A DNA stretch of 21,401 nt from a virus. The notes beneath the pieces are model-generated. The model searched no databases, was not told where the DNA came from, and worked only from the letters and a program-made list of their open reading frames with translations. Shown here in pieces: positions 1-12,489 of this stretch. The position numbers were made by a program, and so were the translations under genes. The stretch's first letter is position 1. Every line of letters begins with the position of its first letter. The stretch lies in the IMG/VR virus record IMGVR_UViG_3300025300_001362, positions 1 through 21,401 of that record; one strand, written 5' to 3'.

Positions 1-640
1 CTTCGTAGAGTTCTTGAAAGGCGGCGGCGTTGCCACGGAAGACACTCTTAGCATCAAGCACTTCGGCTTCATCTAACACGCCAGCGTCAATCGCATCCCA
101 CGCGGTGATCTTTGCGTAGTGCCAATCCGGTTCACCACTTTCGGCTCGTCGTGCCAGTTGGTATGCCCAATTCCGTCTGCCCTTGACATTACCAATCACA
201 CGCACCGCACCGCCCGTCGCGGTGATAGTTGTCCGTGCCGCGATCCAAGCGTCTTCTTTGCACCGTGTCGCTTCATCAATCACTAGCGCATAGACATCTT
301 CACCATAGAGGGCATCTGGTTTATCGGCTGACTTGAACGCGATGATGGTGTTCGATGGACGAACGTGAATCTCTAAGTTCTGCTCATGGGATTCATACAG
401 ACTGGTATCGAGATATTGCTTGAGTCGTTTGAAGGCGATCTTGGACTGTTCACGAATTGGCGCAATCCACCAGTATTGATTTCCGGCTTTGCCCTGAAGG
501 GCTTGCTCAAACAGCCAGATGATGCAGCCAACGGTCTTCCCGCTTTTCGTGCTGGCTTCAATGACGCTATACCGCGCAGGGCAGAAGATGGCTTCTAGTT
601 GTTTGGGGTAGAGCCACGGTCGAGAGTAACGCGCAATCAC
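1..640 (-). CDS. terL: Terminase large subunit, N-terminal part (cut by window edge)
   Basis: About 213 residues of the ATPase half of the phage DNA-packaging motor are present; the C-terminal nuclease half lies beyond position 1. The translation shows a Walker A-like loop STKSGKT at residues 30-36 and a Walker B segment ALVIDEA at 118-124, followed by a TRCKEDAW stretch where the coupling region is expected. The protein translocates DNA into the prohead and cuts concatemers with the small subunit. The start is GTG at 640, overlapping the terS stop as GTGA, so translation is probably coupled to terS. The order terS then terL is the usual phage arrangement. No ATG alternative is close to the overlap. 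Identification is firm because both ATPase motifs and the partner gene are present; the subfamily (headful or cos) cannot be judged from this half. Confidence 0.9.
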   Translation of the reverse strand, partial: MIARYSRPWLYPKQLEAIFCPARYSVIEASTKSGKTVGCIIWLFEQALQGKAGNQYWWIAPIREQSKIAFKRLKQYLDTSLYESHEQNLEIHVRPSNTIIAFKSADKPDALYGEDVYALVIDEATRCKEDAWIAARTTITATGGAVRVIGNVKGRRNWAYQLARRAESGEPDWHYAKITAWDAIDAGVLDEAEVLDAKSVFRGNAAAFQELYE

Positions 641-1110
641 GGATCGTTCTTCTCTGTCTTACTCGTTAAGAGTCGCTTCACCAGCGAAGCCTGACGGGGC
701 GGTGGGGGAATGTTGAGCTTGATTTCAATCTCGTTATTCTCACCTTGACCCATGTGTTCCACTTTGTCGCCGTATGTTTCACGGCGATGAGCCTTGAGAA
801 TAAAGATAGCGGCAAGGTCGCTCTTCTCTCTGGCTCGGTTATGGAGTGACGCGAGGGTGAGGTCGAGTCCATCTTCAATAGCTTCGTTCCATGCTTCTCG
901 AAACTGTTTATTCTTGTCGCGTTCTCGATACACGACTGCGCGACTGACACCAGCTTTGCGAGCCGCGATGGCAATCACAGGCATCACCGCCAGTGTCGCA
1001 AGGAACACAGCCTTCCATTCGCCAGCCGACTTCGGGCTGACACCCTTCTTGCGTCCCCCACGTTTCTTTCGTGGAACTAGCGTGATCGGTTTCTTCGTTG
1101 TGCTTGACAT
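637..1110 (-). CDS. terS: Terminase small subunit
   Basis: A 157-residue basic protein directly upstream of terL, of the size normal for small terminases (about 140-190 residues). The N-terminal 25 residues are rich in Lys and Arg (VPRKKRGGRKKG). A helix-turn-helix follows at about 38-62, with AARKAGVSRAVVYRERD as turn and recognition helix, then a helical part (FREAWNEAIEDGLDLTLASL) suited to oligomerisation. Small terminases bind the packaging site on phage DNA and load the large subunit. The stop overlaps the terL GTG start by four bases. The family is assigned from position, size and HTH layout rather than from a unique catalytic motif. Confidence 0.8.
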   Translation of the reverse strand: MSSTTKKPITLVPRKKRGGRKKGVSPKSAGEWKAVFLATLAVMPVIAIAARKAGVSRAVVYRERDKNKQFREAWNEAIEDGLDLTLASLHNRAREKSDLAAIFILKAHRRETYGDKVEHMGQGENNEIEIKLNIPPPPRQASLVKRLLTSKTEKNDP

Positions 1111-1121
1111 CAGTGTGGTTC

Positions 1122-1661
1122 TTATAATAAAGCACGAAGCTCGTGAATACTTCTCATTTTACCGTTCACATCTAATCCGTAGCCGAACACAAACTTATCA
1201 CCGACCGCGAATCCAGAATAGTCAACGTCGTGATTCTTCTTTACCAATAACGCCGCAACACCAATCGAGGCAGGTTTATATGACGCAAGATAGTTCTTGA
1301 CGTATTTCAACGTCAGCCCAGTGTCAACAATATCCTCAACGATAATGACATGGCGACCTTCGATGGCGGTGGTGAGGCCACTAACCAGGTTCACCGTTCC
1401 TGTGGGCTGCGTGTGGTCATAGCTATTGACCTTAATGAAATCAATCTCAGGATACAGCGGTGTCCGATACCGCTTGCTCTGTCCGGTGGGATGGCTTAAT
1501 GCCCGAACCAAGTCTGCCATAAACATGAACGCGCCGTTCAGGATTCCAATCAGGACAGGGTCTTTGTCTGCGTAGTCTTTGAGGATCTTCGAGGCAATGT
1601 CGCGAACTCTTTGCGCGATGGCACGGTCGGTCTTGTGTAGTGACCCGTCTGTCGGTTTCAT
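1122..1661 (-). CDS. hpt: Hypoxanthine/guanine phosphoribosyltransferase-like protein
   Basis: A 179-residue type I phosphoribosyltransferase, full length for Hpt. The PRPP-binding loop VIIVEDIVDTGLTL is at residues 105-118. The flexible-loop segment KVNSYD is at about 77-82, a LLVKK lysine that contacts the purine is at 138-142, and FVFGYGLD, the base-stacking and Mg-binding segment, is at 157-164. The known reaction is purine base plus PRPP to nucleoside monophosphate. The gene overlaps the folE stop as ATGA and ends the queD-queE-folE group, so it may replenish the GTP that FolE uses, or handle a free deazapurine base. Both roles are inference. It is uncommon in phages and could also simply salvage guanine from degraded host DNA. 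Confidence 0.88.
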   Translation of the reverse strand: MKPTDGSLHKTDRAIAQRVRDIASKILKDYADKDPVLIGILNGAFMFMADLVRALSHPTGQSKRYRTPLYPEIDFIKVNSYDHTQPTGTVNLVSGLTTAIEGRHVIIVEDIVDTGLTLKYVKNYLASYKPASIGVAALLVKKNHDVDYSGFAVGDKFVFGYGLDVNGKMRSIHELRALL

Positions 1662-2209
1662 TTAGCAAGCTCTAAGAACTCCATGCGGGTCTCGTGGTGG
1701 TCTTTGAACTTGCCACGCATTACCGACGACACCATGACCCCATCGGACTTAATACCGCGCATCGACATACAAGTGTGAACACCTTTCGCGATGACCGTCA
1801 CGCTTGGGCTGTTAGTAACGCCTGACACCTCAGTTGCGATGTCATCGACAAGGCGTTCCTGAACCTGTAACTGATGAGCATACTTATGGCAGATCCGAGG
1901 AATCTTCGACAACCCAATCACGCGATCCTTGGTGATGTAGCCCACTGCGATATCGCACCAGAACGGAAGCAGGTGGTGTTCGCAGAGTGACCAGACACGA
2001 ATGCCGGACACGACCACCATCTGATCGACTGTCACCGTGTCGAAGGTGGTGTCAATCGTGCCTGGATCGTATCCGATAAACTCCTGCCAATACTTGGCGA
2101 ACCGCTTTGGTGTGTCTTGCAGTCCAGGTCGGTCGGGGTCTTCCCCGATGACTGTCAGAAGTTGTTCGGCGATGTGTTCTAGTTGTCTATACCGCTCGTC
2201 TATTTCCAT
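1658..2209 (-). CDS. folE: GTP cyclohydrolase I
   Basis: A 183-residue FolE catalysing GTP to 7,8-dihydroneopterin triphosphate plus formate, the entry step to both folate and 7-deazaguanines. The zinc ligands are visible as C76 and H79 in CEHHLLPF and C147 in GVHTCMSMRG. The 71-residue gap from first to second cysteine equals that in the E. coli enzyme (C110 to C181). The family motif VIGLSKIPRI is at about 97-106. Its length is that of the core domain, shorter at the N terminus than E. coli FolE. It overlaps the queE end by 23 bases and hpt by 4. With QueD and QueE beside it, the role here is deazaguanine synthesis rather than folate. No clear Shine-Dalgarno was seen, so coupling to queE translation is likely. 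Confidence 0.96.
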   Translation of the reverse strand: MEIDERYRQLEHIAEQLLTVIGEDPDRPGLQDTPKRFAKYWQEFIGYDPGTIDTTFDTVTVDQMVVVSGIRVWSLCEHHLLPFWCDIAVGYITKDRVIGLSKIPRICHKYAHQLQVQERLVDDIATEVSGVTNSPSVTVIAKGVHTCMSMRGIKSDGVMVSSVMRGKFKDHHETRMEFLELAK

Positions 2210-2903
2210 AGGTCAGTGTATGAAGTCTCGTAGTCACATGATAGTTCCGTGCGATAGCCGCTTCAGCGACATCGGATAACGTCTTCTGCACCTGTGTGGC
2301 CTCGATGCCTTCGGGCATGATATAAACAGGACTCAGGGCGTGATTCGTCACCAGCCTGTCTATCTCATCAAAGTCAGCCACATCTTGGACAACAAACTTG
2401 AAGCACCGTCGTGGGTGTTCATTGAACGCATCAAGGACCGTCGGCTGATACCGATCACGTTCGGCGTTGCCGCTGTTCTCAAGTTTGGGACTCACATTGT
2501 ATCGACCGACCTTGAGTGACGGGTTCGGTGCGATGGTGCCAGCGGTCTCTATCTCGCTTGTCCATCCCTGGTCTGCCAGTCTGTCTATAAGTGGAATAAG
2601 GCGTTCAGCCTGTAGCATGGGTTCTCCACCGCTGATAACCAGATGACATATTAGCCTCCCCGATTCCATGTTCTTGTGGCTGAGAGCGTGAATACGAGCC
2701 TCTACGGCACCAATCTCCATCAGGTGGACTTCCTGTGTCTTGTCATATCGTGTCCAGTCCCACGAGAACGGCGTATCGCACCACAAACACGCTAGATTGC
2801 ATCCGGCCAATCTCAAGAAGATGCACGGCGTTCCCATCGTAGGGCCTTCCCCTTGAAAGGTTGGGCCGAAGATTTCGTTCACCGCGAGCATGTGGCTTGA
2901 CAT
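2187..2903 (-). CDS. queE: 7-carboxy-7-deazaguanine synthase
   Basis: A 238-residue radical SAM enzyme converting 6-carboxy-tetrahydropterin to 7-carboxy-7-deazaguanine (CDG). The N terminus has the QueE signature NEIFGPTFQGEG followed by the CX3CX2C cluster-binding motif at C35, C39 and C42 (GCNLACLWCDT). ISGGEPMLQ further on is the radical SAM GGE element. Length matches the family (about 220-245). The start at 2903 has a GAGGA-type ribosome site about ten bases upstream; an internal ATG at 2891 is the alternative. It overlaps queD by 25 bases and folE by 23, consistent with a tightly coupled pathway. Confidence 0.95.
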   Translation of the reverse strand: MSSHMLAVNEIFGPTFQGEGPTMGTPCIFLRLAGCNLACLWCDTPFSWDWTRYDKTQEVHLMEIGAVEARIHALSHKNMESGRLICHLVISGGEPMLQAERLIPLIDRLADQGWTSEIETAGTIAPNPSLKVGRYNVSPKLENSGNAERDRYQPTVLDAFNEHPRRCFKFVVQDVADFDEIDRLVTNHALSPVYIMPEGIEATQVQKTLSDVAEAAIARNYHVTTRLHTLTYGNRRAV

Positions 2904-3304
2904 TTTCTAGTTTCCTCGACCACACACCGCACCAACCTACAGCCCGTGCCTTCCAGTGCCACAGGCGCGACGTCGTGAACAAGATGATGTGCCATGTTTT
3001 CAGCCGTCGGGTTGAACGGCGTGACTACTAGGTCATCAGGAAAATGACGATGAAGCACCGCTACGTCAGGGTCATCCTCGTAAATCAGAAACCGATGATC
3101 CCACTGGGACTCTAACCAGTCACAGAGGCGGTTTTTAATGGCTGAGAAGTCTAAGACCCGTCCGATATCGTCAAGCCCTGTATCCAGTTGCACGGTGAAG
3201 TGGATACGATAGTTGTGACCGTGTAGATGCCTACATTTATTCTCGTGGCCTGTAACTTTGTGACCAGCACTGAAGTCATGGTATCTGGTGGCGACTACTG
3301 ACAT
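2879..3304 (-). CDS. queD: 6-carboxy-5,6,7,8-tetrahydropterin synthase
   Basis: A 141-residue QueD/PTPS-family enzyme converting dihydroneopterin triphosphate to 6-carboxy-tetrahydropterin. Zinc ligands are H15 in FSAGHKV and H28/H30 in HLHGHNY, with the catalytic cysteine C24 in ENKCRHLHG. The Asp-His pair is D69-H70 in QWDHRF, and a late glutamate lies in VVEET. I chose the ATG at 3304 because it has a GAGG site ten bases upstream and gives the usual family N terminus. A GTG at 3328 would add eight residues (MRFRGRAR) and deepen the overlap with the upstream methyltransferase. The C-terminal end overlaps queE. Confidence 0.94.
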   Translation of the reverse strand: MSVVATRYHDFSAGHKVTGHENKCRHLHGHNYRIHFTVQLDTGLDDIGRVLDFSAIKNRLCDWLESQWDHRFLIYEDDPDVAVLHRHFPDDLVVTPFNPTAENMAHHLVHDVAPVALEGTGCRLVRCVVEETRKCQATCSR

Positions 3305-4101
3305 ACGAGCGCGACCTCTAAAGCGCACTCAGGGTACAGGGCGGCAATGGTGGGAAGTGCTTGCTCACGCGGCATGATCTTTAACAGCATTTCAGCTTTT
3401 TGAAGTGACTCTCCTGAGAGAACCGCTTTTAGATGCCGACACTTTGTTGATAGACCGATAGTCTTCTTAATTGACCAACCAGCATCCTCTAACCAGGAGT
3501 GAAGTTCTGTCATCTTCGGCTCATAGACATGTGCCGCATATTGCGCATCGTACCCACTTGCACCTTCCTGTGTCACCGGACACGTTAGGTACAGAATTGC
3601 CTTGTTCGTCGCGACCGCACGACATTCCCGCAGCGAGGCTTGTTGCGCCTCGATTGCCATGTGTTCAATGGCCGACGTGTATACCACTAGGTCAAACCGT
3701 CCACTCAGATGCTGTGACATCTCCGCCACATTTGCTTCGACGAACGAGACAGGAAAACCCCAGTCCTTCTCTTCTTTTGATCTTCGAGGGTCTAAGCCTC
3801 TCGCAAAGACAGCGTTCTGTGAATGGATGTCAACACCAACATAGGCGCGGCACGTTTTTGAACGGTAACGTAGAAACGGAATCAACAACCCTCGCCCACA
3901 ACAGACATCCAGAACCCTGCCGTGATTCGGCATTAGGTCGGCCGCGAAGGCGTGTTGAAAGTAGCAGTGAACATCAAGTTCTGACGCAACGCCATCGTAG
4001 AACTGTCGAAAGCAGTTCCTCATCTGATACGTTGTGCATAGCACCTCTTTTCGATCTATGTCATCCGTGATCTTTGGCACGATCCTACTTGACAGGGTCA
4101 T
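3295..4101 (-). CDS. Class I SAM-dependent methyltransferase of unknown substrate
   Basis: A 268-residue protein with a Rossmann-type methyltransferase core. Motif I VLDVCCGRG is at about 63-71, the acidic end of beta 2 (GVDI) at 89-92, a motif II-like FVEANV follows, and DLVVYTSAIEHM matches motif IV of small-molecule class I enzymes. There is no SPPY or DPPY, so it is not an amino-methylating DNA methyltransferase of the usual kind. I chose ATG 4101, which has a GGGAG site seven bases upstream; an ORF start at 4194 would overlap dpdA by 110 bases and has less support. It overlaps dpdA by 17 bases and queD by 10, placing it inside the deazaguanine block. A role in methylating a deazaguanine intermediate or the base in DNA is inference. 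It has an extra C-terminal domain of about 70 residues that I do not recognise. Confidence 0.8.
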   Translation of the reverse strand: MTLSSRIVPKITDDIDRKEVLCTTYQMRNCFRQFYDGVASELDVHCYFQHAFAADLMPNHGRVLDVCCGRGLLIPFLRYRSKTCRAYVGVDIHSQNAVFARGLDPRRSKEEKDWGFPVSFVEANVAEMSQHLSGRFDLVVYTSAIEHMAIEAQQASLRECRAVATNKAILYLTCPVTQEGASGYDAQYAAHVYEPKMTELHSWLEDAGWSIKKTIGLSTKCRHLKAVLSGESLQKAEMLLKIMPREQALPTIAALYPECALEVALVCQ

Positions 4102-5008
4102 GGTCACTCCCGTTGGCGGTAAGGCTCCATCCAGCGTGGAGCATATATCGTTGATACTTAACCCACTCGCCGAAATTGTGCATAGCGGTTTCACGCGCCT
4201 TTAAGCGTGTTCCGGGGGGACACTTAACCTTTCTTAGACCTGCACCGGTAAAGACATCAAGGTAACCAGCACGATTGCCCATTGTCCAGTTCGTTGAGTC
4301 CACCGAGTCAAAGCGGTAGTTGGTGAGTCCCGATGTTGGCGCAAAGCCTAACCCGTGAACCCTAGTTCTAGTCTCATGGGCAATGTCGCACAACTTGTTG
4401 AGGTATCTATACTCCTTACGATGAATGGCCTTAATTGCTAACCCACCGATAGCGACATACGGGTAGTCCTTCACCATTCCTCGCCAGTAGTCAAGGCCAC
4501 GACTACGATGCCAGACTGGAATGCATTGCCGTCCGGTACGTGCCTCAAGCGTATGACGTAACTGTTCAACACGCGAAAGACCTACAGCCACGTCAATATC
4601 AAGTTCAAGAAAAAGGTGTATGTCATGTTTAAGAATAAAGTCTGCATAGCGACACACGTAGTCATCCCAATCCGTTGACGCTTTAGTGTTAACACTTTTG
4701 GTCTTTTGTTTTATAAACGTGAACGCACCGGAGTCGAGCATAAAGTTCCAGACCTTGTTGTCGATGTATGGAAGCATCCAATCTTTTACATAAAAGAATG
4801 ACTCAAGAACGTAGAGTCCTGGCTCTGCCAGTTTTGCTCTGCCAGGGTCAACAGGCTTGTGATGGCATAGCCCGTGAAGCGTTCCCGTTGAGACGAGGTA
4901 GTTGTCCATTATCAACCAGTCACGCGAAGCGATTCCGGCGAGGTAGTTGTCCATTGCTTCTTCAATGAAAACACGTCCATATCTACCCGTGACGAGGTAG
5001 TTATCCAT
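4085..5008 (-). CDS. dpdA: DpdA-type DNA 7-deazaguanine transglycosylase (TGT-like)
   Basis: A TGT-like TIM-barrel protein of 307 residues from the first start, or 274 from the third. Residues 91-96 read LDSGAF, matching the TGT element that carries the first active-site aspartate (D92). LELDID at 135-140, VAIGGL at about 185-190 (TGT GGL loop), HGLGF at 219-223 and FDSVDSTNW at 233-241, the likely nucleophile region, follow in the expected order. DpdA proteins exchange guanine in DNA for a 7-deazaguanine, the DNA counterpart of tRNA transglycosylation. Adjacent queD, queE and folE support this over a tRNA role. The N terminus is unusual: MDNYL occurs three times, at residues 1, 19 and 34, each with an ATG that could initiate. 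Only the first (5008) has a strong Shine-Dalgarno (GGAAGGA). The third fits the family N terminus best. Confidence 0.9.
   Translation of the reverse strand: MDNYLVTGRYGRVFIEEAMDNYLAGIASRDWLIMDNYLVSTGTLHGLCHHKPVDPGRAKLAEPGLYVLESFFYVKDWMLPYIDNKVWNFMLDSGAFTFIKQKTKSVNTKASTDWDDYVCRYADFILKHDIHLFLELDIDVAVGLSRVEQLRHTLEARTGRQCIPVWHRSRGLDYWRGMVKDYPYVAIGGLAIKAIHRKEYRYLNKLCDIAHETRTRVHGLGFAPTSGLTNYRFDSVDSTNWTMGNRAGYLDVFTGAGLRKVKCPPGTRLKARETAMHNFGEWVKYQRYMLHAGWSLTANGSDHDPVK
4892..5008 (-). repeat. Three in-frame copies of the dpdA start-codon segment
   Basis: An 18-base element beginning ATGGAYAACTACCTCG occurs on the minus strand at 5008-4991, 4954-4937 and 4909-4892. Starts are spaced 54 and 45 bases apart, so all are in the dpdA frame. 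Copies two and three differ at two positions and copy one has one silent change. Similarity between copies two and three continues weakly past the element (GGAATCGCTTCGCG against GGGAACGCTTCACG), suggesting local tandem duplication of the gene start. The function is unknown; alternative starts or a translational control site are possible. Confidence 0.85.
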
Positions 5009-5023
5009 TCATCCTTCCATGCA

Positions 5024-5626
5024 CTACTTTACCTGTAGCACTTTAAGGATGGCTTGCTCTGGAGATTTCCCATGTGCCGCTAGTGCTGTGACTACCGCTT
5101 GATGATCGTCAGGAGAAAACTTCAGCGTCAGCGTTATCGTTTCCTCTTGGTTGGCGTTCGGGTCATTCTCAAAGAATTGGTCGAGGTCAACATGTTCTGC
5201 ACTAGCGAGAATTGACTGCAATTCCTCATCGTAAAAGAATGACGAGAGGTCGATATTGTTGTTCGCGTCTTCGAGCAATTGCTTGGCGTCCCAATCAGCG
5301 AGTTCACCTGTGCGGTTGTCATAGATGGCCAGGTCGCGCTTCTGAGCCTCTGACAGCCCCGTACGGCGCACCGCAACAAGTTCTGACCCCTTAGCCTCAA
5401 CCACCTTGAGGTCGGTGATACCAGCCTCGCCAGCGGCTTCTATGGTCGCATTACCAGCCAGTACTTCGTTGTTCTCATCAATGACAATCGAGCGACCGGT
5501 GCCGACCTTGTGCAACGCCTCGACAATCATGCCGACGTTTCTCGGCGTGTGCTTGCGTCGATTCTTCGGGTCAGGAACCAAGTCCTTGATGTGAGTAAGC
5601 GGCTTTGCTTCTTTTTTAGGTGTCAC
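5024..5626 (-). CDS. ParB N-terminal-domain protein
   Basis: A 200-residue protein whose first 110 residues form a ParB/sulfiredoxin-type domain. DLVPDPKNRRKH at 15-26 is the entry motif, IVEALHKVG at 34-42 the helix, and IVIDENNEVLAGNATIEAA at 47-65 corresponds to the ParB box, with GNATIEAA where chromosomal ParB has GERRYRAA. The C-terminal 90 residues are acidic and have no motif I recognise. The start is GTG at 5626 behind a GAGAGGAAAG site. Such isolated ParB domains are common near phage DNA-modification genes. The bacterial dpd system uses DpdB, a ParB/DndB-like protein, with DpdA, so a partner role with DpdA 16 bases downstream is plausible but unproven. The changed ParB box argues against plasmid partitioning. 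Confidence 0.8.
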   Translation of the reverse strand: MTPKKEAKPLTHIKDLVPDPKNRRKHTPRNVGMIVEALHKVGTGRSIVIDENNEVLAGNATIEAAGEAGITDLKVVEAKGSELVAVRRTGLSEAQKRDLAIYDNRTGELADWDAKQLLEDANNNIDLSSFFYDEELQSILASAEHVDLDQFFENDPNANQEETITLTLKFSPDDHQAVVTALAAHGKSPEQAILKVLQVK

Positions 5627-5647
5627 CTTTTGGGACTTTCCTCTCTA

Positions 5648-6229
5648 TCACGCATACGCCTCTGACTCCTGTTTTAGTGAATCCCGATACAGATGCTGCT
5701 GGTGTTTATAGTGCCGCAACTCATCCGGTGGGCGAAGCTGACGAATCTTCTTGGCATAGGCTTCACCTGTTGAGAATGTCTTCAGATAGGCGCGGTCAAG
5801 AATCTCGTGATAAAGACACCAGCCAACAAACGTGTAGTCTGTTTGAATATCCTGCTCCGTGTGGTCCCATGTTTCACAGAGCATAAGTGCATAGGCATCA
5901 ACCATGTTCGCATCTCGGCTCTTTTTGAGCGGCACGATGAGATGGTCAGTGCGTCTGGTGACAGCCTTCACGTCAACACGTACACCAGAAGGCAAGACAC
6001 AGTCGTGGCCACCGGAACGCGGTTCAGTCGTCAGGTCTGGATAGGTATTCAGTAACTTAGCGAACGCCACCTCTGCACCGAAGCCACGTCGCTCCATGAC
6101 CATCGGGGAAGCATCGGCATAGAGCGCATCAGTCACACCGGCCTTTCGGTTGTTGAGATACCGGCAGTTCGAGACAAATTCGACGAGACGAAGTTCTGTC
6201 GTGTTCAACGTCGTGCTGTTATCCACCAT
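5648..6229 (-). CDS. PD-(D/E)XK-fold nuclease-like protein
   Basis: A 193-residue protein from ATG 6229, which has a strong AAGGAG six bases upstream; ORF starts at 6253 and 6235 lie in or before this site. A restriction-endonuclease-like core is visible: E53 in RRGFGAEVAFAKLL, D76 in SGGHDCVL and D86-V-K88 in VRVDVKAV, fitting E...D-X9-DXK. The sequence RSGGHDCVLPSGVRVDVKA resembles phage and restriction-type PD-(D/E)XK proteins that act on a defined DNA. It overlaps the aminotransferase by 11 bases and lies 21 bases upstream of the ParB gene, so it joins the sugar island to the DNA-modification block. Whether it cuts unmodified host DNA, repairs or does something else is unknown. Confidence 0.65.
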   Translation of the reverse strand: MVDNSTTLNTTELRLVEFVSNCRYLNNRKAGVTDALYADASPMVMERRGFGAEVAFAKLLNTYPDLTTEPRSGGHDCVLPSGVRVDVKAVTRRTDHLIVPLKKSRDANMVDAYALMLCETWDHTEQDIQTDYTFVGWCLYHEILDRAYLKTFSTGEAYAKKIRQLRPPDELRHYKHQQHLYRDSLKQESEAYA

Positions 6230-7487
6230 AACCATCTCCTTGTGACGAGACACATTCCTGTACGTTTACCTCACAGACGTTCGCAACCGATTGACCCAAG
6301 ACGCTGCCGACCCGCTTTGCGTCAGCAGCAGTCATACTCGCTATGATATTCCCACAAGCTCGGTGCAACAAGACTCCCCGCTGATAGGCTTGACCTAATA
6401 CTGCATCGAGTTCTCCGTCAGTCAGTCCAGCCAATCGAAAATGCACCGGATACCCTTCCATCACACTGGGCGTTCCACTGGCCTCAGCATGAAAGGCCTC
6501 GCGTAGAATGTAACCCCGCTCCCACATCCGTTCACTGATAGACTCCGTGCGATACCGCGTGATAACTTCCCTGGCGGCTGATAGTCCTAGAAGTGACCCC
6601 CCAAAGGTGCTGCTGATGAGGTGTGCTTCTTTCATCACATCTTTAGAGCCACAAATGGCTGCAATAGGCACACCGTTTCCGAGTCCCTTTCCAAAGGTGG
6701 CGATATCGGGCAACGTATCCCGTGCCGAAAACAGACTTTGCGAACCGGCCAATGCATGGCGAAATCCAAAGATCATTTCGTCAAAGATAAGCAAGGCCCC
6801 GTGTGCATGTGTGAGGGCTTTAACTTGACGCACAAAATATCGCTCGTCATCTTGTGGGACGCGTTCCAATCCAATCGGCAACACGGGAAACCGATAAGGC
6901 TCAATTAATACTGCCGCTGTTTGTTTTGTGATTTTGCTTCGCAGATCATCTATGTCGCCATGTTTGAATGTCTGAAGACTGGCAGCCATGCTTCCATAAC
7001 AGTCGGCAAAATCTTGAGGATTCTCCGTGCCGTCCATAAGGATGGGTTGGCGATACTGTGACTGGAACCATTCGTGCCAGCCATGATATGCGGTGTCTGC
7101 GACGAGAAGATTGCTTCGTTTGGTCACACTACGGGCAATCTGGACCGCTCCTTGCACCGCCTCACTCCCGGTCATCACGAAACGTGTCATTTCTGCACAG
7201 GGAATCACTTCTGATAACAGCGTCGCGACCTCATTTTCAAGACGATGCGGCAACGACAGAATTGACCCGAGCGCGAGTGCGTGACCAACGGCCTTGGTGA
7301 CTCCGATGTCTCCATAGCCAAGTGAAATCGCACCAAGCCCCGCCACTAAGTCAATGACCTCAGAATAATCAGAACACACGACACGACACCCTGCTCCCGA
7401 TTCTGCATAGCGGGGATAAACATGTGTTGGCCCAACCGCTCCGAAGGCTTTTGATCGTGTTTGAGTATCGAGTGGTGTGTGTAGCAT
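6219..7487 (-). CDS. Class III PLP-dependent aminotransferase (GSA-aminomutase-like)
   Basis: A 422-residue fold-type I PLP enzyme. TGSEA at 106-110 binds the cofactor phosphate, YHGWHEW at 134-140 stacks on the ring, D236 in IFDEMIFGFR holds the pyridine nitrogen, and K267 in TFGKGLGNG is the Schiff-base lysine. Together they mark the glutamate-1-semialdehyde aminomutase branch. In surface-sugar clusters such enzymes are annotated beside SpsF and NeuB homologues and are thought to aminate a sugar or its precursor. Haem synthesis is unlikely here because of the neighbours. It would have to stand in for the DegT-type PseC or LegC, which is absent. It starts five bases after the cytidylyltransferase stop and overlaps the PD-(D/E)XK gene. 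Confidence 0.88.
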   Translation of the reverse strand: MLHTPLDTQTRSKAFGAVGPTHVYPRYAESGAGCRVVCSDYSEVIDLVAGLGAISLGYGDIGVTKAVGHALALGSILSLPHRLENEVATLLSEVIPCAEMTRFVMTGSEAVQGAVQIARSVTKRSNLLVADTAYHGWHEWFQSQYRQPILMDGTENPQDFADCYGSMAASLQTFKHGDIDDLRSKITKQTAAVLIEPYRFPVLPIGLERVPQDDERYFVRQVKALTHAHGALLIFDEMIFGFRHALAGSQSLFSARDTLPDIATFGKGLGNGVPIAAICGSKDVMKEAHLISSTFGGSLLGLSAAREVITRYRTESISERMWERGYILREAFHAEASGTPSVMEGYPVHFRLAGLTDGELDAVLGQAYQRGVLLHRACGNIIASMTAADAKRVGSVLGQSVANVCEVNVQECVSSQGDGYGG

Positions 7488-7491
7488 CGTG

Positions 7492-8184
7492 TTATATCTC
7501 TTTCAGTATTCCGCACAGTCGCGCTGCCTCTAGAACATTCTGTGCTGAGTAATCATCAGGCACCAGATATCCCCATACCCGCCGCACACGGTCGAGGTCT
7601 TCCTGTCGATCTACGCTGAGTTTGAGATAGCCATAGTCGTGTTCGGACAAGACATCATGAGTCTCGCAGTTGGATCGAATCCACGGCGTAACGTGTTCAC
7701 GGTCATGGCGAGTATTCACACGTTGAGCCGCCTGATGTAAGACTTCCGCTGCCATCACTTCGGTATCGAACCCATCGGGCCATCGTGCCTGGCGACCGAC
7801 ATTCGACACGTAGTCATAGGTCGACTTCAGGTATTCGCCTAAGACGTATGACGACACATCTGAGGCCAGCAACGGACAATCGCCTGTGATACGCATCACC
7901 ACATCGGCTTTCATAAATCGTGCGGCCTGATCCATCCGTCCTAAGACATCCCACTCCTCCCCACGATAGACACAGATACCACTCGATGGACGTTCAAAAA
8001 CCGAAGCCAGTTGGTCATCGTGTTCGTTGACACTGGTAACAAGACAGATTCCGGTAAGTTTTTCCACATGAGAAACACGGGTGACCACATGCTGAATCAT
8101 GGACTGTCCGGCAATTTGAGATAGGGACTTCCCCGGCAATCGCTTAGATCCCATACGAGCCTGAATCAACGCGACAACTCTCAA
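7492..8184 (-). CDS. SpsF/KdsB-type CMP-sugar cytidylyltransferase
   Basis: A 230-residue nucleotidyltransferase. The N-terminal nucleotide-binding motif IQARMGSKRLPGKSL is at about 7-21. YRGEEWDVLGRM, MRITGDCPLL, WPDGFDTEV and REHVTPWI follow in the order seen in SpsF proteins, and LKLSVDRQEDL closes the fold. It should activate a sugar acid as its CMP form, the last step before transfer. The only plausible start is TTG at 8184, overlapping the upstream stop as TTGA; there is no good Shine-Dalgarno, so reinitiation after the FemAB-like gene is likely. The exact sugar cannot be read from the sequence; NeuB upstream suggests a nonulosonic acid. Confidence 0.88.
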   Translation of the reverse strand: MRVVALIQARMGSKRLPGKSLSQIAGQSMIQHVVTRVSHVEKLTGICLVTSVNEHDDQLASVFERPSSGICVYRGEEWDVLGRMDQAARFMKADVVMRITGDCPLLASDVSSYVLGEYLKSTYDYVSNVGRQARWPDGFDTEVMAAEVLHQAAQRVNTRHDREHVTPWIRSNCETHDVLSEHDYGYLKLSVDRQEDLDRVRRVWGYLVPDDYSAQNVLEAARLCGILKEI

Positions 8185-9236
8185 TGCACTACTCGGTCCA
8201 CAGGACGTACGTCACATGTATAAATCGGCTGCACGAAATCCTCACCGCCGAAGCCGCGCCGGAAGAATTCGATATTAGATTCCTTCTTAGTTACGCCGAC
8301 ACCTTGATGACCCATCTCGTAATACGTCACACCGAGTCCCTTTAAGTGCTTTATGACGGCCCACTGAATCGCATGGGAGACGTTTGGTGTCAGACTGGCG
8401 GCACTGGCATAGTAGGCGTATCTTTTGTCTCGAATAACATACGCAAATCCCACCGGCTGTGTAGTGTCTGGGTCACGAGCAATGAACCAGGATGCCTGAT
8501 TCTGTTGCGCCCAAGCATCCTGGTAGATCCAAGAGTCTGTTGGTCGTGTCTTTCCACCGGCAGCCCGTTGATGCAAATCCTGACAGATTTTTCGTGCTTC
8601 AGAATGTGTCTCTGTTCCGATGTTTAACTTTGAATCACGGATAAGATGCCGATACGATTTCCTCATGTCATGCCATAACTGATCTTGTTCTTTTTGCAGA
8701 TTAATGATTCGCGTTTTATGTCCGACATCTACCCACTGGCCCATCAACGGACTGGCGCATGTGTGGGCGTATCCCCACGCACAGATAAGTGCCTTCCGAT
8801 CTTGACCGGCCATGACCATTTCTTGGTCTGTGAATTCCGACTTGAAGTGAGGATGCCAGATGGCACTCTTTAATCTGAGACTGCCCGACTTTTCACACCG
8901 AGCGATTAGTCCTGCTCTGCATTGCTCGTAGTCAAAATCGTAATGCGAATCATCACCATCAGGCGGTAAGATGGCGGGGGGTGGTGCTGGCAAATCACCA
9001 AGCCCGTATTCCAAATCATCAGGATTGTATGTCAATAACTGGGCCGCGTGGACCCGATATTCCTTGTCGACTAATGCCCACGAATGGTCTTCAAGTTTAG
9101 GATTTCGTGCCAGTTCATAATCACGCCATTGCGGACGTGACCAAAACCACAACGATTGCGTGGCATCCACAATGTGATTCACTTGGTCTGCTAGATGGTC
9201 TGTATCGAGCGGGACAAGCGATAGTCTAACGTCCAT
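8181..9236 (-). CDS. FemAB/GNAT-superfamily acyl- or aminoacyl-transferase-like protein
   Basis: A 351-residue protein whose C-terminal half resembles the FemAB-like GNAT fold (acetyltransferase_6 type). MRKSYRHLIRDSKL at about 190-203 is the usual lysine/arginine-rich helix. PVGFAYVIRDKRYAYYASAAS at about 260-280 gives the paired strands, and YYEMGHQG the late motif. The N-terminal half is rich in Trp and acidic residues and I cannot assign it. Similar proteins occur in nonulosonic-acid and capsule clusters, where they may attach an acyl or amino-acid group to a sugar amine. The ATG at 9236 has GGAG six bases upstream even though it lies 46 bases inside the preceding gene. The substrate is unknown. 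Confidence 0.65.
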   Translation of the reverse strand: MDVRLSLVPLDTDHLADQVNHIVDATQSLWFWSRPQWRDYELARNPKLEDHSWALVDKEYRVHAAQLLTYNPDDLEYGLGDLPAPPPAILPPDGDDSHYDFDYEQCRAGLIARCEKSGSLRLKSAIWHPHFKSEFTDQEMVMAGQDRKALICAWGYAHTCASPLMGQWVDVGHKTRIINLQKEQDQLWHDMRKSYRHLIRDSKLNIGTETHSEARKICQDLHQRAAGGKTRPTDSWIYQDAWAQQNQASWFIARDPDTTQPVGFAYVIRDKRYAYYASAASLTPNVSHAIQWAVIKHLKGLGVTYYEMGHQGVGVTKKESNIEFFRRGFGGEDFVQPIYTCDVRPVDRVVH

Positions 9237-9748
9237 AAATCTCCGCGGTTATGACTGACCCAAAATCCAGCACCACAAAAGGCCGACAACGATGCTGCGT
9301 TGGCGTGTTTTATCTGTGCCTCCAATGATCGTAAGTTCAGGTGTTCGGCATACGAACATAGAGATTTGAGTATTGGAGTAGCATATCCTCGCCCACGATA
9401 TGAGGGGCCAACCGTAATGGACACGCGACCGTGTCGTTCAGTGTCTCTATTGACAGAATGAGATGTCTTGTGAATATCAGCACCATGATCAATGCGACAG
9501 GTTCCAATCGCAAAATACAGACCGTTGTTCGTTTGTGTTTCAGCCATCAACAAACAACGTGTCTCAGATTTCATTGACTGCCAACACCACTGAACATGGT
9601 CGTCGTAATCAATTTCGTCTTGGTTCAAAGACCATTTACGAGTATCCCCGTCATTGGCCCACTGATACAAAAGATTGATGTCGGTCTCCGTCGCCAGGCG
9701 AAGGTGTATAGACACGTCATGCCGCCAATCGCATTCACCGCCATTCAC
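9191..9748 (-). CDS. GNAT N-acetyltransferase, PseH-like
   Basis: A 185-residue acetyltransferase. The N terminus RLATETDINLLYQWANDGDTR (residues 17-37) and the HVQWCWQSM segment at 51-59 resemble PseH, the enzyme that acetylates the 4-amino group of a UDP-sugar in pseudaminic acid synthesis. The acetyl-CoA loop is VGPSYRGRGYATPIL at 113-127. The length is close to PseH. The start is GTG at 9748, overlapping the neuB stop as GTGA; a second GTG at 9715 would remove 11 residues. It overlaps the FemAB-like gene by 46 bases. GNAT membership is certain; the PseH-like role is inferred from similarity and neighbours. Confidence 0.8.
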   Translation of the reverse strand: MNGGECDWRHDVSIHLRLATETDINLLYQWANDGDTRKWSLNQDEIDYDDHVQWCWQSMKSETRCLLMAETQTNNGLYFAIGTCRIDHGADIHKTSHSVNRDTERHGRVSITVGPSYRGRGYATPILKSLCSYAEHLNLRSLEAQIKHANAASLSAFCGAGFWVSHNRGDLWTLDYRLSRSIQTI

Positions 9749-10632
9749 TTTGTTTGAACGACCCTAAAACCACTAAGCGATTGTTCAGATTGCGTTACCG
9801 CTTTCTTTCCAGAGCCGAGCATTGATATGGCCTCTTTCGCATTTAACACATACGACTGAAATTGATCCGATGTCATGGCATGTGGATAGTCTGGATTATC
9901 TACATCTGTTGTCCTTAAACGCAAATGCGCCTCTAAAATTGTGGCTCCAGCCATCACGGCCAATGCTCCACTCGACACATAATTCGGATTCGTATGGTCA
10001 GAAAAACCATCAAACGAAATGCTCTTTCTTTTTGAATCAGCTAAAGAAATCCCATCAGTCTTATTTGCGTCGAGTTGCGTGTGGACTGTCGGGCTGATAC
10101 GAGTTCGCAGCACTGATAAATTGCAATCGGCCAATGGTGTCGGATACGCACTCACGCAATGGAGCAACTTCACATCATCAGCAGAATATCTGAGAAGAAA
10201 TTCCAAGTCTTTTTCTTCAGTGATGCCCGTGCTGAGATAAACAGGTTTCTTGTGACTCAGCATCGCATCCAGTAACTCAATATCCCCACATTCAAAAGAT
10301 GAAATCTTAAATGCGTCAACATGCGGAGCAATAACTTCGACATCTTCAGGTAGATACACACTACACAGATATCTGATGTTGTGTTGCGTTGAGATTGTTC
10401 GTAACTGTTCGTGCCAATCTTTGCTCCATTGCAGATATTTCCTGTAATGAGATAGATACGGGGTCTTGCTGGCATGTCTGCGTCGAGCCATCTTCGTCGC
10501 ACTCGATGTCCACTGAAACTTAACAGCATCCGCTCCAACATTGGAGGCCGTGATAGCCAGTGCGTTCATTTTGTGAAGTTGACCATCTCCACATGAAGCG
10601 GCTTCTGCGATAATTGTGAGCTTATTTTGCAT
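9745..10632 (-). CDS. NeuB-family nonulosonic acid synthase lacking the SAF domain
   Basis: A 295-residue TIM-barrel synthase condensing phosphoenolpyruvate with a six-carbon amino sugar. Family motifs appear in order: IIAEAASCGDGQ at about 7-18, GADAVKFQW at 33-41, a KISSFECGDIELLDAM segment, KPVYLSTG, LLHCVSAYPTP, GFSDHT, and ILEAHLRL with NPDYPHAM. Typical NeuB/PseI proteins are about 340-350 residues and end in an antifreeze-like SAF domain that caps the partner active site. This one stops after the barrel, so the SAF domain is missing. EAH replaces the common EKH. The start is ATG 10632 with AAGGAT upstream. The specific product (sialic, pseudaminic, legionaminic or another) cannot be read. 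Confidence 0.88.
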   Translation of the reverse strand: MQNKLTIIAEAASCGDGQLHKMNALAITASNVGADAVKFQWTSSATKMARRRHASKTPYLSHYRKYLQWSKDWHEQLRTISTQHNIRYLCSVYLPEDVEVIAPHVDAFKISSFECGDIELLDAMLSHKKPVYLSTGITEEKDLEFLLRYSADDVKLLHCVSAYPTPLADCNLSVLRTRISPTVHTQLDANKTDGISLADSKRKSISFDGFSDHTNPNYVSSGALAVMAGATILEAHLRLRTTDVDNPDYPHAMTSDQFQSYVLNAKEAISMLGSGKKAVTQSEQSLSGFRVVQTK

Positions 10633-11488
10633 CGTTGATTATCCTTATGACTTCTCGACCGTCTGTTAGTTGTGCAGCCCCTGATTGACCATTCAGTCCC
10701 CACGTCAAACCAATGAAGTCCCGAAGTTCAGTTATATACATGTCGTGAATGTGCTTGGGTTTTGACTTCCAGTTTCTGGATGTGACGTGATCGTCATCCC
10801 AGAATATCTTGATATCGCGCAGTTCATCGTCCGGATGAGACACATATTTGAGATCAAGATTGACGTGAAATTCTGCATTCTGAACTGGAGCCGCCGCTGG
10901 TGATAGTTCTGGAGTTGATGTCAAACACAACCATGCCTCCGACGCATTGACGACTGCCTTTTGCACTTTGTCTGAACCGAATAAATATCTCGCTAGATCG
11001 ATTTCGTGAGACATTTCGTAGACTGCATCACCGTAAGTCGAGGGATTGCCCGGCCACATACTCACGCACGAATGACATCGGATAGATGCCCTGACAATCT
11101 GCCTGTATTCGTTTGACCTATTCATAATACCAGACACTAATTCACGAATGCCTTCATGGAATCGCCAACAATAACCCATCACGACTGGACGGTCACCTGC
11201 CAACTCAAGCAATTCGTCGGCCTCTTCTAAGGTATGACATAAAGGCTTCTCGATGAACACCGCTGCCTCAGTTTCAGTAAGCACCCTCTTCGCCATATCA
11301 AAATGCGTCTGATACGGCGTGCAAATCATCACGCTAGCGGGGGAAAGTTTTAATGCGTCGTCTAGTTCTAAATTCGATTCGACAATGGGATCAACGATGC
11401 CAATTTTCTCCTTGGCGATGCCAATATAGAGGGTGTTCTTATAGTGGCGTTTGCCAATGGAACCATGCCCGATGATTAGAAGATCCAT
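10622..11488 (-). CDS. Gfo/Idh/MocA-family oxidoreductase
   Basis: A 288-residue NAD(P)-dependent oxidoreductase. The N-terminal Rossmann motif is LLIIGHGSIGKRH at 3-15. A CTPYQTHFDMA segment and the EKPLCHTLEEA motif, with the catalytic-site lysine of the EKP signature, follow as in the family. The C-terminal half is the alpha/beta substrate domain and is somewhat short. These enzymes oxidise or reduce sugars, often nucleotide-linked; homologues occur in legionaminic and related sugar clusters. It shares one base with the dehydratase stop (TGATG) and overlaps neuB by 11 bases. The substrate is probably the keto-sugar from the dehydratase or a derivative, by inference. Confidence 0.85.
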   Translation of the reverse strand: MDLLIIGHGSIGKRHYKNTLYIGIAKEKIGIVDPIVESNLELDDALKLSPASVMICTPYQTHFDMAKRVLTETEAAVFIEKPLCHTLEEADELLELAGDRPVVMGYCWRFHEGIRELVSGIMNRSNEYRQIVRASIRCHSCVSMWPGNPSTYGDAVYEMSHEIDLARYLFGSDKVQKAVVNASEAWLCLTSTPELSPAAAPVQNAEFHVNLDLKYVSHPDDELRDIKIFWDDDHVTSRNWKSKPKHIHDMYITELRDFIGLTWGLNGQSGAAQLTDGREVIRIINDAK

Positions 11489-12489
11489 CAGTATCCGTCG
11501 CTCTCTGCCTGGATCACTAATTCTCTGAGTTCATCGCAAGTCAGTTGGTGGAATGCATCGTTGCTGCAATATGTAAATGCGTCAGGTGCAGCATCGCCCA
11601 TCATCCACTTAGATCGTGTCCACGTTGGTTGTGGGGGTGCCACCATCAAGACATCGTGATTGCGATGGATAAGTGTTCTCGAAATTTCTTCTGTGGATAC
11701 AAGTTTTTCGTGGAGTTTTTCCCCACCCGCTCTGATACCAGAAATAATCGGTTTCGGCGCAGTATTTTTCTCTCCCAACAACCCATGCACCGCACCGAGT
11801 AATGATTTCACTGGTGCTGCACCGATCCTGGGGATGAAAATCTCACCACCTTGCATGTTATCTATTGCCGTCCAGACCAACATGACAGCATCGCGTAATC
11901 GCATCCAGAATCGAGTCATTCGCTCATCAGTCAATGTCACTTGCTGTCCTGACTGAAGGGCTTCTTTCCATAATTGAATAACTGAACCACGCGATCCGAG
12001 AACATTGCCATAACGAACCACACAGGACTTGAAATCTTGATCGTATGCATTAGCACCAACAACAAATCCTTCGGCACTGGCCTTTGTTTTGCCGTACTGG
12101 TTCATTGGTTCAACTGCCTTATCTGAACTAATAAATACAAGTCTTTTTACACCAGAAGCGAGACATGCATTCACGACATTGACTGTGCCGACCGTGTTGG
12201 TCTTTATAAGTTCGCCCCCATCAGTATGGGCATTGACTCGCTTTAATGCTGCCGCATGAATGACCACATCGGAACCACGAAATGCTTGACACAAACGATC
12301 TACATCCCGAACATCTCCAAGATAGGCTCTGAATTCTGGATAGTTGGCAAATTCAAGGCCAATCTCGTCGGCCTTAACTTCATCGCGAGATAACGAAATC
12401 AATCGTGTCACATCGTCGCGTTCTTGTTGACAGTACCGGGTGAAAGCTCGACCAAAAGAACCAGTCCCGCCTGTGACCACAACCTTCAA
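11488..12489 (-). CDS. PseB/CapD-type UDP-N-acetylhexosamine 4,6-dehydratase
   Basis: A 333-residue short-chain dehydrogenase of the extended type, the usual PseB length. The NAD-binding motif TGGTGSFG is at 6-13, SLSRDE at 32-37, HAAALKRV at 78-85, catalytic SSDK at 121-124 and the YGKTK tyrosine and lysine at 132-136. MTRFWM is the late motif of this subfamily. It should start the island by converting UDP-GlcNAc to a 4-keto-6-deoxy sugar. The start is TTG at 12489 inside a TTGA overlap with the preceding stop, with AGGTGAAG just upstream; the next ATG would cut into conserved regions. Confidence 0.9.
   Translation of the reverse strand: MKVVVTGGTGSFGRAFTRYCQQERDDVTRLISLSRDEVKADEIGLEFANYPEFRAYLGDVRDVDRLCQAFRGSDVVIHAAALKRVNAHTDGGELIKTNTVGTVNVVNACLASGVKRLVFISSDKAVEPMNQYGKTKASAEGFVVGANAYDQDFKSCVVRYGNVLGSRGSVIQLWKEALQSGQQVTLTDERMTRFWMRLRDAVMLVWTAIDNMQGGEIFIPRIGAAPVKSLLGAVHGLLGEKNTAPKPIISGIRAGGEKLHEKLVSTEEISRTLIHRNHDVLMVAPPQPTWTRSKWMMGDAAPDAFTYCSNDAFHQLTCDELRELVIQAESDGY

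Follow-up and report, generated by a model that had tools for sequence, protein, structure and literature searches.

Sialic-acid-like sugars are known on cell surfaces and flagella; what would a phage do with genes for making one? The question is raised by a 21.4-kb IMG/VR fragment (record IMGVR_UViG_3300025300_001362, positions 1–21,401; this whole stretch is referred to as the window), in which positions 6219–12489 are filled by an island of seven tightly packed open reading frames (ORFs), all on the minus strand. Neighbouring ORFs of the island overlap by 1–46 bases, except for a 4-base gap between those for the aminotransferase and the cytidine monophosphate (CMP)-sugar transferase. An earlier reading made from the letters alone (the sequence-only reading) had seen here a seven-gene, same-direction nonulosonic acid pathway, and all seven ORFs were found at these coordinates and on this strand, with matches to the families proposed. 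Gene content, conservation, constraint, a viral clade of NeuB synthases and linkage to a family resembling glycosyltransferase family 42 (GT42) were all observed, and the best explanation of these sequence data is that the seven genes form a resident functional module, which would make a CMP-activated nonulosonic sugar during infection by a lineage of tailed phages. Members of this uncultured phage family probably put a sialic-acid-like sugar on their particles, or else on the surface of the host. The more specific proposal, that CMP-nonulosonate is made by the phage and attached by its own GT42-like enzymes, most likely to head proteins, we regard as evenly poised.

Conservation and exchange of the gene set

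Scanning viral contigs with two NeuB motifs yielded 478 NeuB relatives, and a scan of genome contigs by two short NeuB motifs recovered mostly loci without the set. The sequence-only reading had suggested a search for relatives in other phage genomes: the complete set, in identical order, is present in at least six further phages (L095/L096, L015, L017/L018, L019, L020 and L194), flanked on one side by the replication/HNH genes and on the other by those for ParB or TerS. Protein identities range from 89% down to about 21% (21–44% at the lower end), and retention of gene order in such diverged relatives excludes chance. Among cultured phages, no relative of the window NeuB was found in 50,697 records.

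One relative, G024, has the genes of a tailed phage, for terminase, portal, protease, major head protein and tape measure. In a second assembly of this phage the two ends overlap over 123 bases, so that the map, of about 47 kb, is circular and complete. The window stretch itself was recovered in two further assemblies (L002, 99.7% identity; L003, 99.5–100%), so that a chimaeric contig is very unlikely. The possibility, raised in the sequence-only reading itself, that the set belongs to a host island and not to a phage was examined and not borne out, the relatives being full phage genomes, and its placement of the set between phage replication and DNA-modification genes was upheld. Both a host genomic island and a chimaeric contig were rejected in view of the two matching assemblies, the full-phage relatives, the conserved order and the circular genome. 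L003 differs from the window in having 87 and 115 bases repeated at the joints 9173–9174 and 10278–10279, probably an assembly artefact; these repeats shorten the neighbour of the aminotransferase gene.

The island genes are under constraint. Ratios of non-synonymous to synonymous substitution rates (dN/dS) were 0.06–0.12 in the pair L193/L194, and residues D123, K124, Y132 and K136 of the dehydratase, the GxGxxG, K81-P82 and H161xxD164 motifs of the oxidoreductase, E10, K38, K109, S112, H213 and H236 of NeuB and the pyridoxal phosphate (PLP) lysine K267 of the aminotransferase were invariant in seven diverged phages.

Divergence between the window and G024 is uneven. Flanking genes mostly share 79–94% identity (synonymous divergence, dS, 0.55–0.77), whereas six of the seven island genes, together with small adjoining genes, share 40–67% (dS saturated or >3); the cytidylyltransferase alone resembles the flanks (89% identity, dS 0.71). 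On the simplest reading of these comparisons, the cassette has been swapped as alleles among related phages, in the manner of surface-antigen loci, and such exchange of variants suggests that the glycan probably varies under selection.

A viral lineage of NeuB synthases

Bacterial NeuB sequences for comparison came from three phyla (399, 296 and 294 genomes) and one class (385 genomes), with plasmids and a genome scan as further sources. In the resulting tree 17 viral NeuBs made up one side of a branch (support 100/98) that held no sampled bacterial member, and a viral member left out of the profile scored 309 bits, the bacterial maximum being 197. Bacterial synthases that likewise lack the SAF domain (L231, L241 and L242, beside flagellin-type genes) formed a separate branch. 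Within the phyla sampled, the SAF-less lineage of the phages therefore appears to be virus-only. A second viral NeuB group (L031, L035, L042 and L046) is of the usual length, approximately 330 residues, and clusters with bacterial L251.

Candidate GT42-like transferases among the head genes

In the relatives an unannotated protein family is encoded twice per genome: one copy lies between portal and protease, the other a short way past the major capsid gene. Neither Pfam nor PHROG gave this family an assignment at useful scores. When a 15-member profile was compared with the PDB, most of the best matches were GT42 sialyltransferases; with 25 members, the top nine were all GT42 CMP-sialyltransferases (E-values 0.002–0.036). 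In a comparison with the MptE domains that Maf proteins of bacteria contain, the profile aligned in register over the entire domain (P 0.0018; control NeuB, P 0.27). Membership of GT42 is thus a putative assignment, resting on weak sequence similarity together with gene linkage. Purifying selection acts on each of the two copies (dN/dS 0.05–0.12).

Both the pair of GT42-like genes beside portal and major capsid genes and their linkage to sugar genes are new here. The distant sugar-operon phage G015 has both copies at the same two positions. As an independent test of the link, viral contigs were scanned with the GT42-like family alone: several contigs unseen by the NeuB search proved to have sugar genes. 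L301, L311, L339 and L358 have the GT42-like gene within an operon with NeuB and PseB relatives. The family was found at 15/118 viral NeuB loci, of which many do not extend far enough to reveal it, and at 0/128 bacterial ones. The window's own phage population carries the gene: L292, which is 100% identical to window positions 1–2178 and 99.9% identical to the neighbouring contig, has copy 1 at its positions 5305–5955, and L286, overlapping the same neighbouring contig at 99.85%, has both copies, at its positions 1200–1955 and 6435–7253. A further GT42-like protein is encoded at L104:18053–18997.

The only cultured relative of the GT42-like gene is in Microcystis phage L284 (PP496355.1), where it adjoins the small terminase gene. 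It is annotated there as a type 11 methyltransferase, a label that looks doubtful; the same phage also has a sugar O-methyltransferase.

Composition of the set and its predicted product

Island proteins were assigned to families with Pfam and NCBIfam profiles and by their best PDB matches, with AlphaFold models for two of them (Table 1). The best PDB match of the dehydratase is 2gn4, a uridine diphosphate-N-acetylglucosamine (UDP-GlcNAc) C6 dehydratase; against the PseB profile TIGR03589 it scores 275 bits, under the equivalog cut-off of 408. Scores also fall below cut-off for the GNAT protein against the PseH profile TIGR03585 (29 bits, cut-off 93), for the aminotransferase against NF004856 (166 bits, cut-off 486) and for the Pfam match of the FemAB-like protein (18.8 bits, cut-off 22). 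The cytidylyltransferase matches 6oew, a cytidylyltransferase, over its full length (E 1e-23). The best fold match of the NeuB model (predicted local distance difference test score, pLDDT, 89) is 6ncs, a synthase from Leptospira that likewise lacks SAF (E 1.6e-19), which confirms the NeuB fold at the level of a predicted structure. The low-confidence model of the FemAB-like protein (pLDDT 63) best matches FemX and other aminoacyl-tRNA-dependent transferases, peptide synthases among them (E 1.5e-9 to 5e-8), and this protein probably acylates or aminoacylates its substrate.

Table 1. Genes of the island, and two further features of the window, with the matches on which their naming is based.
Feature	Position	Strand	Evidence and remarks
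PseB/CapD-like UDP-sugar 4,6-dehydratase	11488–12489	-	TTG start; Polysacc_synt_2 252 bits, E 8e-75
Gfo/Idh/MocA oxidoreductase	10622–11488	-	GFO_IDH_MocA PF01408 E 3e-12
NeuB/PseI-type synthase without SAF domain, 295 residues	9745–10632	-	NeuB PF03102 139 bits, E 2e-40
GNAT N-acyltransferase, PseH-like	9191–9748	-	Acetyltransf_3 PF13302 59 bits, E 8e-16
FemAB/FemX-like transferase	8181–9236	-	TIGR04421 FemAB 41 bits, E 9e-11
SpsF/KdsB-type CMP-sugar cytidylyltransferase	7492–8184	-	CTP_transf_3 PF02348 88 bits, E 1e-24
Class III PLP aminotransferase, GSAM-like, PRK06209 type	6219–7487	-	Aminotran_3 PF00202 121 bits, E 6e-35
Large terminase, partial	2–640	-	94% to G024 TerL; portal and first GT42-like gene beyond contig end
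PD-(D/E)XK-like neighbour	5648–6253	-	Weak DUF5843; nuclease motif read by eye

Three members of a nonulosonate pathway are present, namely the 4,6-dehydratase, the NeuB-family synthase that condenses with phosphoenolpyruvate (PEP) and the CMP-sugar cytidylyltransferase, and a class III aminotransferase is found where the pseudaminic/legionaminic acid (Pse/Leg) pathway has a DegT enzyme. A route can be proposed from these family assignments. The dehydratase would convert UDP-GlcNAc to a 4-keto-6-deoxy sugar, to which the class III aminotransferase would then add an amino group; the GNAT and FemX-like enzymes would acylate the aminated sugar, and a UDP-sugar hydrolase, from the host or an unrecognised protein, would free it for condensation with PEP by NeuB. 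The cytidylyltransferase would finally activate the nonulosonate to the CMP-sugar. The oxidoreductase has no assigned step in this scheme.

Use of the sugar: virion, host surface or DNA

According to the proposal that we favour, the CMP-nonulosonate-like sugar would be made early or mid infection, and the GT42-like enzymes, encoded among the head genes, would transfer it, with head proteins of the virion as the most likely acceptors. The sequence-only reading had left the choice between host surface and virion; the GT42-like genes beside capsid genes shift the weight towards the virion. In its broadest form the proposal is one of virus-specific sialylation, with a NeuB lineage that is virus-only among the genomes sampled, its own operon and capsid-block GT42-like transferases, in which diverse tailed phages would wear an exchangeable sugar, and this we place just short of an even balance.

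Several points weigh against this proposal. The GT42 match of the candidate transferases is weak (best E 0.002), several contigs with a GT42-like gene have no sugar genes within 10 kb, and in the Microcystis phage no sugar operon is annotated over the 26 kb covered. Nor is a virion target proved by a place next to the capsid genes. Moreover, the DegT aminotransferase (PseC/LegC; PF01041) is absent from the window and from all core-family records searched, and the PseG-type hydrolase (TIGR03590) from 14 virus records, NeuC not having been searched separately. Either, therefore, the class III enzyme replaces PseC and a host hydrolase is used, or the product is not Pse/Leg. The pathway named in the sequence-only reading consequently stands as a nonulosonate-type set in a phage, but not as the complete textbook pathway, since PseC, PseG and the SAF domain are lacking.

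The main rival to virion glycosylation, possible though on balance rather unlikely, is that phage GT42-like or host transferases decorate the envelope of the host (its O-antigen, capsule or flagellin) with the sugar, which would exclude other phages or keep progeny off debris. GT42 enzymes of known function act, by their PDB names, on bacterial lipooligosaccharide; bacterial homologues of the set adjoin flagellar genes and Maf transferases; and the exchange of cassettes resembles that of surface-antigen loci. Against this, the transferase copies lie among head genes in two phage lineages, and GT2, GT4 and Maf/MptE transferases (the last by Pfam) are absent from core relatives. No lysogeny genes were recognised, not every protein having been scanned, and no integrase was found among the larger proteins scanned in two relatives; together with the lack of GT2 and GT4 families in core relatives, these observations bear on a possible temperate-phage seroconversion cassette, which would have lysogeny genes and genes of the GtrA/B/C type.

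Because key Pse/Leg enzymes are missing, the product might instead be some other activated ketosugar, such as a 3-amino sugar or an acid like 3-deoxy-D-manno-octulosonic acid (Kdo). Beyond the missing DegT and PseG, this would suit the SAF-less synthase, the Gfo/Idh enzyme, the class III aminotransferase and a GNAT under the PseH cut-off. We nonetheless consider it unlikely: PseB-like dehydratase, NeuB and CMP transferase make up a nonulosonate core, and at the bacterial locus L242 a SAF-less NeuB occurs with PseB, CMP transferase, a PseG-like neighbour and Maf/MptE proteins.

It is highly improbable that the CMP-sugar is placed on bases of the phage DNA. The island does adjoin FolE, QueD, QueE, a DpdA-like enzyme and DNA methyltransferases, but the sugar operon is kept in G024, G005 and G007, which have no deazaguanine genes; the DpdA-like gene has been swapped independently, and no gene for a hydroxymethylated base was recognised. 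That the set is passing, host-derived cargo from which the phage gains nothing lasting, for which the slightly lower GC content of part of the island (0.45–0.53) might speak, is scarcely credible; a functionless cassette was rejected, being contradicted by order and position kept over deep divergence, dN/dS near 0.1 and the virus-only NeuB clade.

If virion glycosylation is correct, phages synthesise and wear sialic-acid-like sugars, which bears on adsorption, phage–phage competition and particle stability. A phage-owned route would be a new source of CMP-nonulosonate enzymes, and the two transferase genes make the purpose of the phage sugar genes testable on single proteins.

Genome context of the window

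The left end of the window holds the small terminase gene and the end of that for the large terminase. Between these and the island lie genes for HPRT, FolE, QueE, QueD, a methyltransferase, a DpdA-like protein and a ParB-like protein. The right flank of the island carries genes for HNH, a VRR nuclease, an N4/N6 methyltransferase, a replication initiator and an exonuclease. A homologue of the PD-(D/E)XK-like neighbour is found inside the sugar operon of L020/G008, between CMP transferase and aminotransferase. Terminase comparison gave only distant matches (≤31% identity), so that no host is named, and a tRNA search for a hint of the host gave none.

The FolE, QueE, QueD, DpdA-like and HPRT genes occupy positions 1122–5008, as in phages with 7-deazaguanine in their DNA. 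QueC is not in the window; the methyltransferase gene at 3295–4194 overlaps the DpdA-like gene, and the relative G008 has a QueC-like gene there. The deazaguanine base of the window's phage possibly differs from the usual one. In L193/L194, DpdA is 47% identical and its neighbours 92–98%, a DNA-modifying enzyme swapped alone; a DpdA scan returned four contigs only and gave no usable control for association with sugar genes. The ParB-like protein (5024–5626) has a counterpart in G024 (L106:13568–14800) that is fused to a DNA methyltransferase domain, and in other relatives its spot is occupied by Dcm-type methyltransferases or PP-loop proteins. A 302-residue protein of G024 (L107; 32969–33874) resembles the phosphoadenosine phosphosulfate (PAPS)-reductase/PP-loop family and is possibly another DNA-modification gene. 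An IS110-type transposase (L103:8616–9641) is inserted among the replication genes of G008.

Comparison with known systems

One survey lists neuB among virome functions (PMC3877843). Searches of the open-licence literature brought up no report of a phage nonulosonate operon, which does not prove its absence. With the bacterial Pse/Leg pathways (PseB-C-H-G-I-F; in Bacillus, SpsM-C-D-G-E-F, PMC7439481) the phage set has in common an operon of dehydratase, GNAT, synthase and SpsF-type transferase, but it is without DegT, PseG/SpsG and SAF and adds the FemX-like and Gfo/Idh enzymes. The bacterial flagellar glycosylation locus L236 (G239), which adjoins flagellar genes and two MptE/Maf proteins, shares PseB, an SpsF-like protein, a class III aminotransferase, a PseH-like domain, a synthase and a FemAB-like protein. 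It differs in having in addition a DegT-like protein (recognised by eye) and a PseG–PseH-like fusion (recognised by eye and by a GNAT profile match), a synthase of the usual length (349 residues) and another gene order.

For the candidate transferases the best profile match is to the GT42 CMP-sialyltransferases CstI/CstII (PDB 2p2v, 1ro7), with which a glycine-rich N-terminal motif and the motif A-x-A-I-x-x-G-x-x-x-I-x-L-x-G-x-D align; the phage proteins differ in that the sequence similarity is weak, their genes lie in the head block and their activity is predicted. Glycosylation of phage particles has a precedent, PMC12363180 (citing Freeman et al. 2023) describing phage-encoded glycosyltransferases that modify capsid and tail proteins of mycobacteriophages Che8, Corndog and Myrna. 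The likeness between those transferases and the present candidates is one of role, and to such virion glycosylation the phages described here would add a dedicated nonulosonate pathway.

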